64,000 nt of DNA. Source: a virus. Of the stretch, positions 49,804 to 62,837 are shown in pieces. Where the stretch lies: IMG/VR virus record IMGVR_UViG_3300011116_000796, positions 55,655-119,654 of that record. One strand, given 5' to 3'. Every line of letters starts with the position of its first letter. Position 1 is the first letter of the stretch. A program made the translations under genes and the position numbers. The notes under the pieces were generated by a model. It ran no database searches, was not told where the DNA came from, and saw nothing but the letters and a program-made list of their open reading frames with translations.

Positions 49804-50517
49804 TTACGAATTGTCCAATAACTCTTCTGCCTCCTGAATACTGTCCACCTTCCGAATGAACAGAGGAGTACCCTCCCCCACCCATGCTCCAATGGTATTG
49901 GTGTGTAGGTACTCATAAGCCTCGTCAATAGTCATACCGTCACGCTCGACCAGAACGCTTGCACACTTATCAAGATCATATACGATAATTGGCACATTGT
50001 TATCGATCCTAGACCCCACTCCAATGACGCAGTCTTCGAACCCATCCGCCTTCATAGTTCGGGGTTCAGGGCGACTCTGTCTAGCCTCTGGCTTGCCCTC
50101 TGTACCTTCCCCCTCTTGCCACCCGCTCCGATCAGGGATCGTGGAGATCGCCTCCTGGGGGCTTTTCTGATGCATAGTCCAATAACACCTTTCCGCATCC
50201 CTCTTGGTGGTGTATGGGCGGCTGACATTCCCGTTGATATCGGTCCACACCCACCCCATATGGCGGGGACTGTATCGGACCACAGGATCCTTCTCATCAG
50301 GATTCATGCATTGGCGGTCCATAACTTCCATGTGGTTTGCAATAATCTGATCCGCCTCCATCTCACTCGGAAAGTGCTTCGTAATGCGTCTTGCAGCCTC
50401 ACGAACCGCTTTGGGAATTCCCTTACGGATGTAATTTGGGTTGAATGGGCTGAACAGGGAATACATGAAATTTCGGGCGTTATTCATGGCAACAAATTGC
50501 TCGTATGGAAGTGTCAT
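49804..50517 (-). CDS. BPSL0761-like N-terminal domain protein (237 aa)
   Basis: The first ~60 residues (MTLPYEQFVAMNNARNFMYS, IPKAVREAARRITKHFPS) resemble the BPSL0761-type small domain widespread in proteobacteria and phages, of unknown function. A middle segment (RHMGWVWTDINGNVSRPYTT) and a C-terminal part with DGMTIDEAYEYLHTNTIGAW are unassigned. I chose the ATG at 50517: translation further upstream would pass through the sigma-70 promoter. GC and codon use are higher than in the structural genes, which may mark a recently acquired gene. Confidence 0.72.
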   Translation of the reverse strand: MTLPYEQFVAMNNARNFMYSLFSPFNPNYIRKGIPKAVREAARRITKHFPSEMEADQIIANHMEVMDRQCMNPDEKDPVVRYSPRHMGWVWTDINGNVSRPYTTKRDAERCYWTMHQKSPQEAISTIPDRSGWQEGEGTEGKPEARQSRPEPRTMKADGFEDCVIGVGSRIDNNVPIIVYDLDKCASVLVERDGMTIDEAYEYLHTNTIGAWVGEGTPLFIRKVDSIQEAEELLDNS

Positions 50518-50524
50518 AAAAAGT

Positions 50525-50552
50525 ATTATAAGCGTTTTATGTGAGAAGTCAA
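50525..50552 (-). promoter_or_regulatory. Sigma-70 promoter, leaderless arrangement
   Basis: TTGACT (50547-50552), 16-base spacer, TATAAT (50525-50530) on the minus strand; 7 bases separate the -10 from the ATG at 50517, with no ribosome site possible. Confidence 0.82.
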
Positions 50553-50588
50553 TAAATTTCGAAAAGAAAATTCGGAAAAATAGAAACA

Positions 50589-50595
50589 CTAAATA
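50589..50595 (+). promoter_or_regulatory. Late promoter candidate CTAAATA before 50700 gene
   Basis: CTAAATA begins a ~100-base leader that ends in AAAGGAAC before the ATG at 50700. It lies between divergent genes. Confidence 0.65.
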
Positions 50596-50699
50596 CAGTC
50601 GCTGAAGGTATATCCATACCTTGTCCCTACTTGAATTGTTTCTTTTGGTTGTGGGGCTTCATTATCTGATAGTCAAATCAACTAAAAGGAACTACCCCT

Positions 50700-52208
50700 A
50701 TGGCAAACTTTTACTGGCAAGGACAAAGTATAACCGGAATTGCCAAATTCGATTGGAACACTAAAGAAAATTGGAAGCAAGTTGAATTCAACTCAAGCGG
50801 AACCGGATCAAGTTTTGGTTGGCGGTATGTAACCGCAAACTATGCACCTGGCCCAAATGATGCCGCAATCTTCGGAGCAATTAACGAAGGTGGTGGTGCA
50901 CTTCAGCCACTTAATGCACTTTCGCCGTGCCTATTTGGAGGATATTCAGGAAATGTTGCTTCAGGAAGTTGGTTAGGTGCAGTAATAGAAACTGGAACCA
51001 CTGCACAAAGCAGTCTTATCACTATAGTTACAAACCTATCAAGAGAAACTGGAGGCAACAGATATCCGTTCACATTATTCGGAACCGGTCTGACGGCAGA
51101 AACTCTGAATTATCTGTACACGGCTGAAGGCATTAGTGGTGTATCTGATGCAGACCTTGTCCCGTGGGCAGCAGGATCACTTCCGAACTCCGGACTTACT
51201 AGTGGTGGAGTTTCTGGCGGTCAAGCAATGGTCGCAAGATCAAGATTCCCATTGAAACTAAAAGTTAGTGATTCAATCATGCTGCACCACGATGGAGACA
51301 AGTTGATTAAATTTGTTGGTGTCAAATCACTTGTAGATGTTTATGGGACTACAGGCAACACAAAATATGTAAGGACTAATGTTATCCAAAATGGTAAGGG
51401 AACAGTTTCAATCTCTTCAGGTGTCTATCAGAACATTTACAACAATGGTGTTGGTTCTTCTATGTACTTGACGGGACTTACATGTGGAACTTTCCGTACA
51501 GTTCCAACTTCTGTTTTTGTAGAACCTAATTGCAGATTCAATCGTGTTGAGGTTGGAGGACAATACACCAATCCAATTTGGTTCGGTGGATCATTAGACA
51601 CCGCATCAGTTGTTAATGAACTCGGTATACCAGGATTGGGTACAACAGGTGTTAACCAAGCAGAATTGGAATCTGGAATTGATATTCAACCGATCTATCA
51701 GTGGTGGACTGGTGGTGGTCTGCAAAATCAACCCTACTTTGTATTCGGTATTCCCGGCCCAACTTCACAGCAAGCAGTTGCGAAGAGAATTAGAGTAGCG
51801 TCAGTTGATGGTGGTGCATCAGGATCTTCAACGGGAACCGCTGCTTGGAATTCAACTTGGAATCTGACATTCGGGGGTGGTGCAAGTGCAGCAACCATTG
51901 AAACCACTAGTGCAATTGTCAGAGTCCAAAATTCCATCAACACCGCAACAACTGTGAATATTGGTACCTTGTTCATGGACAAATCATCTGTACTGGATCT
52001 AGCATCAGCAGGAGAATTTGATAATTGGTTCTTTGGATCATTGAGTGGAAACTCGATTCAGGGTGGTATCATTTTCAGAGATGAAAAATCCACGGTCAAA
52101 GGAAGCCAAGGTATCAGACTATTCAATACTCAAGTTGTGCTTGGTAATAGATTTGATGTCCGTGGCGGTAAACCAACAGCAACTCTCTCTGAGGGTGGTA
52201 TGATTTGA
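50700..52208 (+). CDS. Beta-rich late protein, probable virion surface protein (502 aa)
   Basis: No named family. The opening (ANFYWQGQSITGIAKFDWNT, ENWKQVEF) has the W...G...W.....NW style of beta-solenoid or autotransporter-like repeats, and the whole chain is rich in Gly, Ser, Thr and Asn with short strands (TVNIGTLFMDKSSVLDLASA). No signal peptide, membrane segment or sorting tail. It stands alone between a late promoter and a strong terminator, as expected for an abundant product such as a head or tail decoration/fibre. Function not determined. Confidence 0.72.
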   Translation: MANFYWQGQSITGIAKFDWNTKENWKQVEFNSSGTGSSFGWRYVTANYAPGPNDAAIFGAINEGGGALQPLNALSPCLFGGYSGNVASGSWLGAVIETGTTAQSSLITIVTNLSRETGGNRYPFTLFGTGLTAETLNYLYTAEGISGVSDADLVPWAAGSLPNSGLTSGGVSGGQAMVARSRFPLKLKVSDSIMLHHDGDKLIKFVGVKSLVDVYGTTGNTKYVRTNVIQNGKGTVSISSGVYQNIYNNGVGSSMYLTGLTCGTFRTVPTSVFVEPNCRFNRVEVGGQYTNPIWFGGSLDTASVVNELGIPGLGTTGVNQAELESGIDIQPIYQWWTGGGLQNQPYFVFGIPGPTSQQAVAKRIRVASVDGGASGSSTGTAAWNSTWNLTFGGGASAATIETTSAIVRVQNSINTATTVNIGTLFMDKSSVLDLASAGEFDNWFFGSLSGNSIQGGIIFRDEKSTVKGSQGIRLFNTQVVLGNRFDVRGGKPTATLSEGGMI

Positions 52209-52244
52209 TAGGATACTAGTTGACAGACAATCAGAATTACAGCA

Positions 52245-52275
52245 CCCCCCCCCGAAAGGGGGGGTTGTTGTTTAT
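52245..52275 (+). terminator. Rho-independent terminator with C9/G7 stem
   Basis: Nine C, GAAA loop, seven G, then TTGTTGTTT. Ends the transcript of the 50700 gene 37 bases after its stop. Confidence 0.85.
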
Positions 52276-52280
52276 AAAGC

Positions 52281-52314
52281 AAAACCCCCTGCACATTTCC
52301 GGTTGTGCAGGGGG
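52281..52314 (-). terminator. Terminator of the candidate ncRNA
   Basis: Ten-base-pair stem CCCCCTGCAC / GTGCAGGGGG (52305-52314 with 52285-52294) followed on the minus strand by TTTTGCTTT. Confidence 0.85.
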
Positions 52315-52456
52315 TCGCTGAGTTCGCACTCTCTATTATTAAGGCTCTTGACCCTACATGTGCGAAATGCGGGGCTGACTGATGCGGCTGTACATCCGCA
52401 TTTTCGTCGGCACTAAAAGATCGTCCGGACAATCCTTTAATACCGTCAGGTGCCTC

Positions 52457-52476
52457 TTGACGGACTAGTCCGTCAA
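52457..52476. repeat. Perfect 20-bp palindrome inside ncRNA
   Basis: TTGACGGACTAGTCCGTCAA reads identically on both strands. In RNA it would form an 8-bp hairpin with a CUAG loop, or allow RNA dimerisation by kissing. Confidence 0.9.
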
Positions 52477-52575
52477 CGCTTCGTGCCTATTGGCCTATTT
52501 TACTTCGCACGAACGAAGGGGTGTGACTAGCCTTGGCGAACCTCGGCAGGGGCGAACCCTTTTCGTCACACCCCA

Positions 52576-52604
52576 AGTATATCCCTTTTCCTACCCTCCG
52601 TCAA
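52576..52604 (-). promoter_or_regulatory. Sigma-70 promoter of the candidate ncRNA
   Basis: TTGACG (52599-52604), 17-base spacer, TATACT (52576-52581) on the minus strand, directly before the GGGG of helix P1. Confidence 0.8.
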
Positions 52605-52641
52605 TACCTAACATCAAAGTTTTTCGACTTTGAGTTATCGG

Positions 52642-53673
52642 TCACTCTACCAAAGCAGGCTCGGATCCCTGCATCTGCTTGGTGAGCAAAGCCATGTCGT
52701 ACTTGTACATGATCTTGGCAAGGAGTTTCATATCCACCTTTGGTTCCCATCCAAGCACACGCTTGGCCTTTGATGGATCGCCAAGAAGGAACGGAACTTC
52801 GTTCGGACGGAAGTACTTGGGGTCAATGACAACATGCTTGTTCCAATCAAGCCCTGCCTCTTCAAAGACTTCGGTCAAGAACTCACGAACGCTGTGAGTC
52901 TTCTGCGTTGCAACCACATAATCATCTCCCTGTGGTTGTTGCAGCATAAGCCACATAGCCTCCACATAGTCCTCTGCATAACCCCAATCACGAAGTGCGT
53001 CAAGGTTTCCAAGGCGCAGTTCAGACTGCAATCCCATCTTGATTCTTGCAGCAGCCATCGTAATCTTACGAGTCACGAATGTCTCACCACGACGAGGACT
53101 TTCATGATTGAAAAGAATGCCTGACGATGCGTGAAGACCATATGCATTTCGATACACACGGGTCATGTGATGAGCATGAAGTTTTGCAACAGCATATGGA
53201 GACACAGGCATCATGATGCTATTCTCGTTATATCCGACCGAAGGATCATAGTCCTTGCTGTCGCCAAACATCTCAGATGAGGATGCCTGATAGAAACGAG
53301 TCTTGGGGCTGAAAGTGCGAATTGCTTCAAGAATCTTTAATGTTCCCGATGCAATACCATCACATGTGTACTCGGGAATCTCAAACGATACCGCAACATG
53401 TGACTGTGCAGCAAGGTTGTAGAATTCATCAGGCTTATGTGTCATGATGACATGAGCGACAGCAGACCCATCAGTCAGATCAAAGTGATGCATCTTAAAT
53501 CTAGGATGATTGAAAAGGTGATCGATTCTTGTCGTACTGATAGATGATGTACGACGCTTGAGACCGATGACCTTATATCCCTTTGCCAAGAGCATGTCGG
53601 CAAGATATGAACCATCTTGACCATTTACGCCCGTGATAACAGCAGTCTTTCCATTCCAAATTTCATCTTGCAT
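52642..53673 (-). CDS. gmd: GDP-mannose 4,6-dehydratase
   Basis: 343 aa, full length for Gmd. Converts GDP-mannose to GDP-4-keto-6-deoxymannose, the first step to GDP-fucose, rhamnose-type and perosamine sugars. Extended SDR features: Rossmann GVNGQDG (residues 15-21), substrate-binding SSSEMFG (131-137) with catalytic Ser/Glu, and Tyr160-x3-Lys164 (YAVAK). The RDWGYAEDYVEAMWLM block is diagnostic. Start has GGAG upstream and a late-type promoter at 53714. Gmd genes are known in several T4-like cyanophages; together with the glycosyltransferase at 21736 it could feed glycosylation of virions or host glycans. Confidence 0.96.
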   Translation of the reverse strand: MQDEIWNGKTAVITGVNGQDGSYLADMLLAKGYKVIGLKRRTSSISTTRIDHLFNHPRFKMHHFDLTDGSAVAHVIMTHKPDEFYNLAAQSHVAVSFEIPEYTCDGIASGTLKILEAIRTFSPKTRFYQASSSEMFGDSKDYDPSVGYNENSIMMPVSPYAVAKLHAHHMTRVYRNAYGLHASSGILFNHESPRRGETFVTRKITMAAARIKMGLQSELRLGNLDALRDWGYAEDYVEAMWLMLQQPQGDDYVVATQKTHSVREFLTEVFEEAGLDWNKHVVIDPKYFRPNEVPFLLGDPSKAKRVLGWEPKVDMKLLAKIMYKYDMALLTKQMQGSEPALVE

Positions 53674-53685
53674 TATTTACTCCAT

Positions 53686-54216
53686 TCACGCATTCATTGC
53701 GTAGTTGTCGTAGTATTTATCGCCTTGCTTTGGGTAATTGTAATCAGGCGATGAATTCATGATAATTTTTGCCTGATTGTTGTTCTTCTCTTCTAGTCTG
53801 ACCATTTCCTCCTCCAACGAATAGACCATCTTTTCAAGATGATCAATTTGATTAGAGTAGTCTTCCCTCATAGCAGAGACTTGATCAAACGCCACTCCAA
53901 TGATTCCACTATGGTCCTTTGGAGTCGGAAGAAATCCTGCTTCGGTGAGTTCATCCCAAAGCAAACGAGAATCCTCCTTGTCGAGATGCAAAAATGGTGT
54001 GTCGGGAATGTGTACAGAAACTTTCAATCGATCCTTTTTGAGGATGTTCTTGATGCTGACAGGAACGGGAAAAACAACATTCGATCCCTTTCGAAGTATC
54101 GCAGAGAAGATCGAAACTGTACCTTCAATATCAATAGAGAAAACGACCATGTAGTCAACACGGTCGGTTCTGCTGTTAATGTTATCAGTCCGATAGAGAG
54201 AGTGAATCTTGCTCAT
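53686..54216 (-). CDS. Unrecognised protein with coiled-coil end (176 aa)
   Basis: No family recognised. N-terminal ~110 residues are beta-rich (VVFSIDIEGTVSIFSAILRK, LKVSVHIPDTPFLHLDKEDS); residues ~110-150 form a coiled coil (QIDHLEKMVYSLEEEMVRLE); the end is Tyr/Asp/Asn-rich. Last of a group of four minus-strand genes running from 54844. GAGG lies 10 bases before the start. Its 3' end contains the promoter-like CGATAAATA used for gmd. Confidence 0.65.
   Translation of the reverse strand: MSKIHSLYRTDNINSRTDRVDYMVVFSIDIEGTVSIFSAILRKGSNVVFPVPVSIKNILKKDRLKVSVHIPDTPFLHLDKEDSRLLWDELTEAGFLPTPKDHSGIIGVAFDQVSAMREDYSNQIDHLEKMVYSLEEEMVRLEEKNNNQAKIIMNSSPDYNYPKQGDKYYDNYAMNA
53714..53721 (-). promoter_or_regulatory. 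Late promoter candidate GATAAATA before gmd
   Basis: GATAAATA on the minus strand, ~40 bases upstream of the gmd start and within the 3' end of the preceding gene. Confidence 0.5.
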
Positions 54217-54245
54217 GTTCTAAACCTCACAGTATCGTAGTGCGC

Positions 54246-54560
54246 TTAACTGCGCTCATTCATGAACTTTCCATATGCACCCTCTGGACCGTCGTTGGGA
54301 AAGCGGTCGTGCCTGTCCCAATCTGCTTGACGCAGGGATTCATTCTCAAGCACGACACTTTCGATATGTTCAATCACCTTACGAAACGCTGCTCGTTCCT
54401 TTTCGCTGTATGCTTCCTTGTCATTCACACAGTCATTGAGGAACTTGATCGCATCGAACTTCGCCTTGGGCTTGGGCTTTCGCTTGGGAGTGTCCCAATC
54501 GATGTGCAGTCCACGCTTGAGACCATTTGCGGTGCGAGTGTTACGATAGTTGGATTTCAT
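54246..54560 (-). CDS. Small protein, unknown (104 aa)
   Basis: No family recognised. Basic N-terminus (NTRTANGLKRG, TPKRKPKPKAKFDA) followed by a helical charged body (EAYSEKERAAFRKVIEHIES). The start shares a base with the stop of the very acidic upstream protein (TAATG), so the two are co-translated; a basic and an acidic partner might interact. Confidence 0.65.
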   Translation of the reverse strand: MKSNYRNTRTANGLKRGLHIDWDTPKRKPKPKAKFDAIKFLNDCVNDKEAYSEKERAAFRKVIEHIESVVLENESLRQADWDRHDRFPNDGPEGAYGKFMNERS

Positions 54561-54844
54561 TAGTTGTGTCCTTCATCTTCGTAGTCACTATCGTCATCAT
54601 CTTCACCATCTTCGATGAAGTCATCTTCGTCATCCCAACGATCATCGTAATCATCGGGGTAAAAGACATCGTCATCATTCAACGATTCATCATCACAGAC
54701 TGGCGAGTCACGATCAGCATGCCAATCCCAATTGGCCTGCATGTCATCGTCATCTTCGGAATCGTAGTTGTCAGGATCTCCGCTCATGTCATTGTGGAGA
54801 ACGGAGGCGTAGTGGTCATCAAGATCGTCATAGGGGTTGGTCAT
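54560..54844 (-). CDS. Extremely acidic small protein, possible DNA mimic (94 aa)
   Basis: 42 of 94 residues are Asp (35) or Glu (7), in runs such as SEDDDD and DDEDDFIEDGEDDDDSD, giving a very low isoelectric point. No signal or membrane segment, one Cys. Sequence of this composition is typical of DNA-mimic proteins that block DNA-binding enzymes (restriction enzymes, nucleoid proteins, Cas complexes), but low-complexity acidic proteins also occur without that role. First gene after a sigma-70 promoter, so early expression is likely; GGAG precedes the start. Confidence 0.7.
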   Translation of the reverse strand: MTNPYDDLDDHYASVLHNDMSGDPDNYDSEDDDDMQANWDWHADRDSPVCDDESLNDDDVFYPDDYDDRWDDEDDFIEDGEDDDDSDYEDEGHN

Positions 54845-54866
54845 GTGGATTACTCCTGTTTCAGAT

Positions 54867-54894
54867 AGTATAACCCCTTCCTCAAATATTTCAA
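54867..54894 (-). promoter_or_regulatory. Sigma-70 promoter of the acidic-protein operon
   Basis: TTGAAA (54889-54894), 16-base spacer, TATACT (54867-54872) on the minus strand; leader of ~17-20 bases with GGAG. Confidence 0.75.
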
Positions 54895-54934
54895 GAGGTA
54901 AACATCACCAAACCAAAGATTTCTTTGGAGGTTA

Positions 54935-55135
54935 TCAGTCTATGTTGGAAACTACCATCCAAGCCCCAAAGGGGTCGGATTTGCGTAGCAATCGTTTAGC
55001 CTTGGTTAAGGCTTCCTCCTGCTTTCGTACTTGGTTGAGTGTGCGCTTCAGAGCCTTCTGAAGCCGTCGAATCTCGTCATTCGCCATTTCGGCGTAGTAA
55101 CCGGACTCTCTAGGGGTCATAGATTCTGCATCCAT
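54935..55135 (-). CDS. Small coiled-coil protein, unknown (66 aa)
   Basis: Helical, basic-leucine type sequence (RRLQKALKRTLNQVRKQEEA, KAKRLLRKSD). GGGAGGG lies 9 bases before the start. CATAAACACTAT stands upstream as it does before the 48526 gene. No family recognised. Confidence 0.6.
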   Translation of the reverse strand: MDAESMTPRESGYYAEMANDEIRRLQKALKRTLNQVRKQEEALTKAKRLLRKSDPFGAWMVVSNID

Positions 55136-56695: not shown

Positions 56696-57328
56696 ATGAA
56701 TAAGAATCTCCCCGCTATCGCTCTCGCAACATCATTGGCTGTTCCCGCTTCTGCTGGTCTTGTTAATGGAGGATTTGAATCCTTCCCCGTATGGGGTTAT
56801 GACTTCTACAGCGGAACCATTCCCGAAGACGGATGGGCAACAACTGCTCCCGACAATCTTATTGAAGTTTGGGGGAATGGATTCTTTGGAGTCCCTGCTT
56901 ATGAGGGAAACACATTTGCTGAACTGAACGCAAATTATGCATCAACACTCTATCAGCATGTTTCAAATGTGCCAGCAAACGGATCGGTGAACTGGCACTT
57001 CGCTCACCGTGGCCGTGATGGTGTAGATACAATGAATCTCACGATCACAGATCTTGGTGCAGATCAATCGTGGGGAGGTGGCGACGATACAGTTCTGTTC
57101 ACGCAGAACTTCTCAGCAGGCAATACTGACTGGGTCTTCAATTTTGGATCAGTGACCACCCTTGGTAACACAACAAGGTTTGCGTTTGAGGCTGTTAATG
57201 CCGTAGGTGGTAACACCCAAGGAAATCTTATTGACTTCTGCGATTTTGACATCAACGCAGTTCCTGCTCCAGGTGCAATTGCCTTGGTGGGTCTCGCTGC
57301 GTTCTTTATGTCACGCCGCCGACTTTGA
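56696..57328 (+). CDS. Exported PEP-CTERM protein with carbohydrate-binding-like domain (210 aa)
   Basis: A full signal peptide (MNKNLPAIALATSLAVPASA) is followed by GLVNGGFESFPVWGYDFYSG and FAELNANYASTLYQHVSNVP, the pattern of DUF642-type galactose-binding-like beta-sandwiches. The C-terminus VPAPGAIALVGLAAFFMSRRRL is a textbook PEP-CTERM-like anchor of the form found in Phycisphaerae proteins. Exported proteins with this tail are usually processed by exosortase-like enzymes and placed at the cell surface or in the matrix. The gene follows the previous one by 12 bases with AAAGGA, and ends before a terminator, so it is expressed late. Confidence 0.88.
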   Translation: MNKNLPAIALATSLAVPASAGLVNGGFESFPVWGYDFYSGTIPEDGWATTAPDNLIEVWGNGFFGVPAYEGNTFAELNANYASTLYQHVSNVPANGSVNWHFAHRGRDGVDTMNLTITDLGADQSWGGGDDTVLFTQNFSAGNTDWVFNFGSVTTLGNTTRFAFEAVNAVGGNTQGNLIDFCDFDINAVPAPGAIALVGLAAFFMSRRRL

Positions 57329-59421: not shown

Positions 59422-59879
59422 TTCGTATTACCCTTTCTCTTTCTTGAGAACGCTGCTAGACCAAGTGCGAGAATTGGAATTGCACTTGGAGATGGAATTG
59501 GAGGTGGGTATGTTACTGATATATCACCAATTTGGTTTGGAATCATCGGAAACGATACACTCTCCACTCTATCAAACTGAACAGGAATGTAGAGATCCTG
59601 ATTCATGGTCTGAATCGCCAACACAAGAAACTCATCATTATAGATCTTGTGTACCCAAAGCCCCGTAAATGAACCCATGAACATGGGCATATCATTCTGT
59701 GGGTAGTTGCTTACTGTTGGTAGGTAAAGAGCAGATGTAACAGGATTCGTGATCTGTGATGTAAAAGTGAAGACACTCGGATAGTTGTAAGAGTCTCCTA
59801 AGTAAACTGCTCCCTGATCTATAGTTCTTGAATATCTACCGGCAGAGTCATAAATCGTAGATGTTGAATATGAGATCAT
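59418..59879 (-). CDS. PEP-CTERM-like protein without signal peptide (153 aa)
   Basis: C-terminus IPSPSAIPILALGLAAFSRKRK is a clear PEP-CTERM-like tail. The rest is beta-rich (YPSVFTFTSQITNPVTSALY, EFLVLAIQTMNQDLYIPVQF). The start used here is the ATG that shares its A with the preceding stop (TGATG); a start 13 codons upstream within the previous gene is possible but no start yields a signal peptide. Either export depends on the preceding gene or an N-terminal part has been lost. The coupling suggests co-expression with the full PEP-CTERM protein upstream. Confidence 0.72.
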   Translation of the reverse strand: MISYSTSTIYDSAGRYSRTIDQGAVYLGDSYNYPSVFTFTSQITNPVTSALYLPTVSNYPQNDMPMFMGSFTGLWVHKIYNDEFLVLAIQTMNQDLYIPVQFDRVESVSFPMIPNQIGDISVTYPPPIPSPSAIPILALGLAAFSRKRKGNTK

Positions 59880-60559
59880 CACTTTCTCCGTCGATTTGAT
59901 CCAAGCGCACAACTGCACAGCGCAAGAGCAAATGTTCCAGGAGAAGGGACAACTTCCATGTAGTAGAAATTGTCCATGGCAAAATGCTTGCGGTATTTGC
60001 CCAACGAATCATCGATCTCATTCCAGATGTGCAATGTGTCGATTTCATACCCCGCACCATAACTCACCCATGATCGATATTCATTAGAAATACTTTGCCC
60101 ATAATCAAACACAGTATTTCCATCTCGGATTCCTTGAATCCTGATGTTTCCGTTTTCCCATATAGATGTAAACCAAGCACCAAAGAAGTGCCAGTTGTTT
60201 CCGCTTGCCAATCGAATTGACCAACGCACAGGTTCTGAGTGATAGTATTCGGTGTAATATGGAGTGAACGCTGCTCTTTGACCAATTACACCAATTGAAT
60301 AACTTCCTTCTTGAGCGATACTTGAGTTTGAATTGTAGTATCCCCAACCAGTGCTGTTCCAACCATTGCTATTCGCATATCGTGGTGGAGTGGGAACACC
60401 ATTCTCTAGGCATTCGAAACGAAGTCCCTGATATTTTTCAAGGAATCCTGCACCATTGAATGGTACACTCGGATCTTCCTCAAAATCAACTAGAGTGACG
60501 CTTGCGTTAGCAAAGCACGATGAAAGACACAGAGCAAAAAATCCATTGTAAATATTCAT
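59879..60559 (-). CDS. Exported PEP-CTERM protein (226 aa)
   Basis: Signal peptide MNIYNGFFALCLSSCFANA, mature part beginning SVTLVDFEEDPSVPFNG with a lectin-like beta composition (WSIRLASGNNWHFFGAWFTS, RSWVSYGAGYEIDTLHIWNE), and C-terminal VVPSPGTFALALCSCALGS plus NRRRK, a PEP-CTERM-like anchor. The pattern DFE...P.F.G.GF resembles extracellular glycan-binding domains of planctomycete PEP-CTERM proteins. AGGAAATC precedes the start. Heads a three-gene unit. Confidence 0.82.
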   Translation of the reverse strand: MNIYNGFFALCLSSCFANASVTLVDFEEDPSVPFNGAGFLEKYQGLRFECLENGVPTPPRYANSNGWNSTGWGYYNSNSSIAQEGSYSIGVIGQRAAFTPYYTEYYHSEPVRWSIRLASGNNWHFFGAWFTSIWENGNIRIQGIRDGNTVFDYGQSISNEYRSWVSYGAGYEIDTLHIWNEIDDSLGKYRKHFAMDNFYYMEVVPSPGTFALALCSCALGSNRRRK

Positions 60560-61748: not shown

Positions 61749-62837
61749 TTACTTTGCTCCCAAAACATCTCTTCCAAGAATGCCATTAGTGGTCAACATA
61801 TGGAAGGATGTATCTGCTAAAAGGTCGAAAGAAAGTTGCTCGTAAAATCCATTTGCTCCCCAAGGTGTTCCTTCGTGCCATAAACCTCTCTGTTGAGGGG
61901 GTGGGGTTGACGATCCATTCCACCCTGCCCGGGCACGACGGTCAGCGTCCATGACTTCAGATACTGCAACAGCACTAACATGACCATCAAAGAACAGTGT
62001 ATTTGGTGTGCTACTATTCCCTTGATTAAAGAACCAAGGAGTATATCCGCCAGCAAATCCGGGATTGAGTGGCCCACCGTCTTGATTCTGTAGCCAATAG
62101 AACTCAATCATGCGAGTCTTTAGTTCAGAATACTTTGCTTGACCCTGTGTAGGACACTTGTACCCTGCGGGAAGAGTATTAGGATTTCTAAATCCCTTGT
62201 CTGAAAGCACATCTGGGTTCCACAATGCGGCAGGACTCCAAACATATGTTGAAAACACTACTGCACCAGGTTGATTGGGAAGCAGAGTAAATTCGCCAGG
62301 ACTGCCTAGACCTTCATCTGCTCGTTCCATTGTCAGTTTGTCTTTTGGAGCAATAAAGGTTCGGTCATAGAAACGACCATTAATGTAACTATTGAACGCC
62401 TTTACATTAGGCAATCGGTAATAGCCAAAGCCTCCATTAGTGAAAGTCCACTCGTTTGGGTGGTACACAATCCAATTGTTGCACCCGCCTGGTTGTGTAA
62501 GCGGACACAAGCCGCCGCCCAACCAGTATCCGTACAGGTTTCCTTGACTGTCCCACCCCAAAATCTGTTGACCAGGACAGCCAATAGTATTCAGATACAC
62601 TTGGCAACTACCGTTAGCAAGACCAAAATCGTCTGCTGCTTGTGTAAACTGACGGTCAGCGTAATCAGCCCCGTAAGTAGCATTAGCAGCGGCAAGATTC
62701 CTTAGATTGCCAAGGCTTTGAGTCACTAGAGCAGCATCTCTTGCTCGTCCCAGTGCAGGAAGCAAAATTGCAATCAGTAGTGCGATAATGGCAACGACAA
62801 CCAACAACTCAACAATAGTAAATGCCTTCTTTTTCAT
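61749..62837 (-). CDS. Type II secretion/pilus-like pseudopilin (planctomycete type, 362 aa)
   Basis: N-terminal prepilin signal KKKA followed by FTIVELLVVVAIIALLIAIL, with Glu at mature position 5 as required for pilin assembly. A helix RARDAALVTQSLGNLRNLAA follows. The C-terminal TPNTLFFDGHVSAVAVSEVM fits the DG-type motif near the end of large planctomycete pseudopilins. Cleavage by a host PilD-like peptidase and assembly into a host pilus or secretion pseudopilus would be expected. Ribosome site AAGGAG. Such a gene is typical of planctomycete genomes; in a phage it suggests capture from the host. Confidence 0.88.
   Translation of the reverse strand: MKKKAFTIVELLVVVAIIALLIAILLPALGRARDAALVTQSLGNLRNLAAANATYGADYADRQFTQAADDFGLANGSCQVYLNTIGCPGQQILGWDSQGNLYGYWLGGGLCPLTQPGGCNNWIVYHPNEWTFTNGGFGYYRLPNVKAFNSYINGRFYDRTFIAPKDKLTMERADEGLGSPGEFTLLPNQPGAVVFSTYVWSPAALWNPDVLSDKGFRNPNTLPAGYKCPTQGQAKYSELKTRMIEFYWLQNQDGGPLNPGFAGGYTPWFFNQGNSSTPNTLFFDGHVSAVAVSEVMDADRRARAGWNGSSTPPPQQRGLWHEGTPWGANGFYEQLSFDLLADTSFHMLTTNGILGRDVLGAK

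Follow-up and report, generated by a model that had tools for sequence, protein, structure and literature searches.

The minus strand of a phage that is T4-like by its gene content carries, beside gmd, a small RNA gene with its own promoter and terminator, whose predicted transcript of about 290 nt combines a three-way junction, a Pistol self-cleaving ribozyme and a 3′ folded domain. The promoter, the junction, the Pistol fold and the terminator are conserved, and compensatory changes preserve the 3′ helices. We consider it fairly probable that this is a modular small-RNA gene in which the ribozyme cuts at 52456/52455 and frees the junction, the functional core, from the 3′ module. To our knowledge, the natural role of Pistol ribozymes is not yet settled. 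Here the ribozyme occupies a stand-alone RNA gene whose limits are clear, an arrangement from which its role in viruses could be learned, and natural relatives with and without it offer a ready comparison.

Results and Discussion

The RNA gene has a conserved promoter and terminator

The window analysed here is the last 64 kb of the 119,654-base virus record IMGVR_UViG_3300011116_000796. It encodes a T4-type head protein and terminase, and the closest named capsids are those of Pelagibacter phages (64%), followed by those of Methylophilales and Synechococcus phages. Read by eye, the proteins encoded at 56696-57328, 59879-60559 and 61749-62837 have PEP-CTERM-like and prepilin-like ends, a hint of a planctomycete-like host or of host-derived genes.

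An earlier note on this DNA placed a structured RNA in a gene-free gap of about 430 bases, and all the features that it named were found in the sequence (Table 1). In the ORF list the gap measures 433 bases (52209-52641), and is flanked by gmd (which ends at 52642) and by a 502-amino acid ORF (which ends at 52208) convergent to the RNA gene. The sigma-70 promoter that had been assigned to 52576-52604 is present, and matches 10 of the 12 consensus positions. A scan of the window gave 18 promoter-like sites, about equal to the 15.4 found in shuffles; support for the promoter comes not from the scan score but from its being kept, with the same -35 and -10 elements and the same spacing, at the same place upstream of the RNA in all ten relatives. 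In all of them the predicted transcript start is the first G of the junction helix (G52569 in the window). The resemblance of this sigma-70-type promoter to other strong minus-strand promoters nearby suggests that the RNA is synthesized early. At the opposite end, the terminator ranks top in a terminator scan, and its stem, 13 bp and not 10 bp as first described, is invariant in all four sequences of a hand alignment (see below).

The folding energy of the whole RNA was 5.2 s.d. below that of dinucleotide shuffles, and none of 200 shuffles was as good. The minimum-energy fold differs from our model, and some modelled helices are absent from it. The proposal that a structured RNA stands alone here, between a promoter and a terminator of its own, is supported by conserved synteny, by the conservation of both signals and by the compensatory changes.

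Table 1. Features of the RNA gene (window coordinates, in the direction of transcription)
Feature	Position	Strand	Remarks
Sigma-70-like promoter	52604..52576	-	TTGACG (52604-52599), 17-nt spacer, TATACT (52581-52576)
Three-way junction, 47 nt	52569..52523	-	two UUCG-capped hairpins; conservation, covariance model
Pistol self-cleaving ribozyme (predicted)	52518..52451	-	Rfam RF02679, 43.8 bits (gathering score 34.5)
Pistol P1	52518-52514/52507-52503	-	helix forms
Pistol pseudoknot	52513-52508/52485-52480	-	UUCGUG/CACGAA, six pairs, perfect
Pistol P2	52494-52492/52454-52452	-	only 3 bp
Pistol P3	52476-52469/52464-52457	-	pairing kept by double change
Predicted cleavage site G52456/A52455	52456..52455	-	alignment to RF02679; survey of 53 Pistols
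3′ domain, first half (P4-P6)	52449..52375	-	
P4, short closing helix around P5 and P6	52449-52446/52378-52375	-	one more pair possible
P5 hairpin	52445-52429/52424-52408	-	17 bp; compensatory changes
P6 hairpin	52401-52396/52387-52382	-	compensatory changes
3′ domain, second half (P7, P8, kissing pairing)	52373..52320	-	
P7 hairpin	52373-52367/52359-52353	-	compensatory changes
Kissing pairing, loops of P7 and P8	52366-52360 with 52329-52323	-	compensatory changes
Conserved single strand AAGAGCC.UAA	from 52349	-	between P7 and P8
P8 hairpin	52333-52331/52322-52320	-	compensatory changes
Intrinsic terminator	52316..52283	-	13-bp stem and T-rich tail

The middle third of the RNA is a Pistol ribozyme

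An Rfam search, as the earlier note had advised, identified the middle third of the RNA as a Pistol ribozyme, which that note had missed. The RNA had been called novel, and this still holds for the 5′ junction and the 3′ domain, neither of which matches an Rfam family. The Pistol is the sole Rfam match in the whole window (gathering score; E up to 1 in 50000-55000). No match to GOLLD, ROOL, OLE, tmRNA, RNase P or SRP was obtained in the window, and ARAGORN detected no tRNA or tmRNA there, in agreement with the lack of tmRNA, RNase P and SRP motifs reported before. Homologous Pistol copies in four related contigs scored 43.2-48 bits, over the Rfam cut-off. The pseudoknot, which links the P1 loop with the P2-P3 junction, lies outside the RF02679 model, yet it is present. 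Four core guanines (52487, 52486, 52479 and 52477) occupy what we take to be positions purine 32, G33, G40 and G42, in the numbering of the env25 ribozyme and of PMC6154101.

The cut-site dinucleotide, G-U in 45 of the 53 Pistols parsed, is G-A in the window and in L003, and A-U in L002 and L093; in the window the cut-site junction retains its length of two with an atypical dinucleotide. These departures in both lineages, and the short P2, are what a decaying inactive remnant or a mere structural spacer might show. We consider such a loss of activity unlikely, since P1, the pseudoknot and the core are nearly invariant while four-fold degenerate sites are 52% identical, and the pairing of P3 is preserved by a double change. 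Moreover, according to a review (PMC6154101), the G-U junction is only modestly conserved in base, though strictly in length, and either purine at position 32 works. Self-cleavage of the window Pistol is likely, though not certain.

The 5′ three-way junction is strongly conserved

The three-way junction with two UUCG-capped hairpins, recognized in the earlier note, is present and conserved. The junction is always 47 bases long, with 81-100% identity across 10 contigs (85-98% between the window and the others), whereas in the adjacent gmd the identity at four-fold degenerate sites is 24-55% when diverged lineages are compared, so that these sites are largely randomised. In the window lineage its outer helix could extend to 52574/52518. 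A covariance model of the junction (R1) recovered one strong copy in each of the 8 junction-bearing records searched. Covariation within the junction is uninformative, because the junction hardly varies. The junction is a strongly selected, previously undescribed phage RNA, found to date only in a single group of T4-like phages.

Several other candidates were discarded. A hammerhead was rejected for the junction, because CUGAUGA is missing. Matches in bacterial genomes (L264-L269) and in L280 comprised the searched pattern only, the surrounding junction being absent. The sole covariance-model match among 294 genomes of the phylum of L264 (Planctomycetales MAG), in L281, was weak, with broken pairs.

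Relatives occur with and without the ribozyme

Related contigs were found via a neighbouring protein, gmd and DNA patterns; a nucleotide search of GenBank phages returned gmd only and left the RNA gene unmatched. The homologous region that the earlier note had suggested looking for was found beside gmd: the complete RNA is present in four IMG/VR contigs (L003, L002, L093 and L095), and five more relatives (L179, L180, L181, L182 and L262) have the promoter and junction immediately after gmd, while their records contain no Pistol at all. The junction is followed by a terminator in L182 and L262, by a hairpin with a weaker T-tract and then the next gene in L179 and L180, and by a different folded module, with nothing meaningful in Rfam, before the next gene in L181. 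From these comparisons, the junction is the conserved core, and the ribozyme and 3′ domain are an optional module.

Two other explanations bear on this arrangement. L179 and L181 are close relatives that differ by a different module of ~110 nt at the same place, as could be the case if the ribozyme and 3′ domain had entered behind the junction as a mobile or selfish RNA module. We judge this very unlikely: no second copy was found in any genome searched, and neither a target-site duplication nor a mobile gene was seen. The junction could also regulate the downstream gene in cis, as a leader or riboswitch, given that in L179 and L180 a ribosome-binding site and a start codon come closely after the junction and hairpin. 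However, the window, L182 and L262 all have a convergent gene in the next position, and a terminator follows the RNA in the window. In L093 and L095 the RNA ends in its own terminator and the next gene is preceded by a promoter-like site of its own, so that the RNA is not simply a leader, and such a site also precedes the next gene in L181. We therefore give a leader function hardly any credence.

The 3′ domain is maintained by compensatory changes

The fold energy of the 3′ domain lay below that of shuffles by 3.5 s.d. in the window and by 2.3 s.d. in L002. Two of its elements had been described before in a somewhat different form: the 20-bp palindromic hairpin exists, with 17 bp (P5), and the 7-bp long-range helix (52323-52329/52360-52366) is better seen as a kissing pairing between two hairpin loops. 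When four sequences were aligned by hand according to structure, 15 of the 72 pairs were found to change on both sides yet stay paired, against 4 one-sided changes and 4 broken cells; helix-breaking substitutions, a check proposed in the earlier note, are thus few and the pairs are mostly kept. The compensatory changes come from P6, P7, P8, the kissing pairing, P5 and P3. Since the 3′ alignment was fitted by hand and the four sequences represent two effective lineages, these counts support the helices and are not a formal covariation test.

A GGCAC/GUGCC helix competing with P2 as a switch was considered and dropped, because P5 covers the same bases in both close sequences. It was noted after the fact that the P5 and P6 loops are self-complementary in both lineages (CCGG and UCUAGA at 52428-52425 and 52395-52388 in the window; UGUACA and UGCA at the equivalent places in L002), as if for pairing between two RNA copies.

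The many compensatory changes that hold the 3′ domain in Pistol-bearing phages would suit a reading that makes this domain the working RNA, with the ribozyme trimming off the 5′ junction as a leader to leave a defined 5′ hydroxyl end. The position of other phage Pistols, on the 5′ side of tRNAs, of a GOLLD RNA or of the tRNA-like domain of a tmRNA, points the same way. Nevertheless, the junction is the more conserved part and is present without the 3′ domain in four relatives, whereas the 3′ domain occurs without the junction in none of the contigs found, and we regard this alternative as rather unlikely.

A model for the modular RNA gene

In the modular gene that we favour, RNA polymerase would start at the early-type sigma-70 promoter and make about 290 nt, comprising in order the 47-nt junction, the Pistol, the 3′ domain held by its kissing-loop pairing, and the intrinsic terminator. 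The ribozyme would probably cut its own strand between 52456 and 52455, giving a 5′ product of ~114 nt (the junction and ribozyme body) that ends in a 2′,3′-cyclic phosphate, and a 3′ product of ~180 nt with a 5′ hydroxyl. The junction would be the working part, because the relatives that lack the ribozyme and 3′ domain retain it with a hairpin or terminator close behind. It may act in trans or bind a protein, and the ribozyme may serve as a processing device that separates it from the 3′ module.

Comparison with other phage Pistols and known systems

Sixty other phage Pistols are followed by enough sequence to look for an ORF start, which lies within 420 nt in 29 of them and not in the other 31. 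A Pistol lies 5′ of tRNAs in L051 and L080. In L027 (6154-5905, minus strand), L050 (706-1053, plus strand) and L087 (13481-13839, plus strand) it lies ~100-200 nt 5′ of a tRNA-like domain of the tmRNA type, which scores 62.8-81.1 bits. The halves of the L027 domain are only ~14 nt apart, so that no mRNA-like part is seen between them. In L064 (2616-1867, minus strand) a Pistol is followed, after ~300 nt of the same strand, by a GOLLD RNA. The association with non-coding RNA is hence not unique to the window phage. Pistols also occur near other ribozymes: one phage, L070 (3742-9597, plus strand), has two Pistol and seven type II hammerhead ribozymes within ~6 kb of one strand, and in the 4.3-kb contig L007 (2863-3413, plus strand) a Pistol lies ~430 nt from a twister-P1-like match on the same strand, which at 51 bits falls below the cut-off of 67.2.

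In the literature, in which subscription papers were covered only in part, neither the junction nor an RNA gene containing a Pistol was found described. We propose tentatively, as a possibility that we rate below an even chance, that the junction is the first member of a new family of regulatory or decoy RNAs in phages and that phage Pistols generally are cis-acting maturation devices of non-coding RNAs, such as the junction and the tRNA-, tmRNA- and GOLLD-linked transcripts.

The window Pistol shares with RF02679 P1, P2, P3, the P1-loop pseudoknot, the conserved core and a score over the gathering cut-off. It differs in its setting, a stand-alone RNA gene in which folded domains flank it on both sides, and in having G-A (A-U in the sister lineage) and not G-U at the cut site. 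GOLLD and ROOL (PMC12286853) are far larger, and the window RNA has no Rfam match to them, but they resemble it in being structured non-coding RNAs of phages, of unknown function, and in having kissing loops. The HDV-like theta ribozymes of gut phages, which have been proposed to trim the end of the attached phage non-coding RNA, are likewise self-cleaving ribozymes in cis to such an RNA (PMC10879173); they belong to another class and lie 3′ of tRNAs, whereas the window Pistol lies 3′ of a non-tRNA junction.
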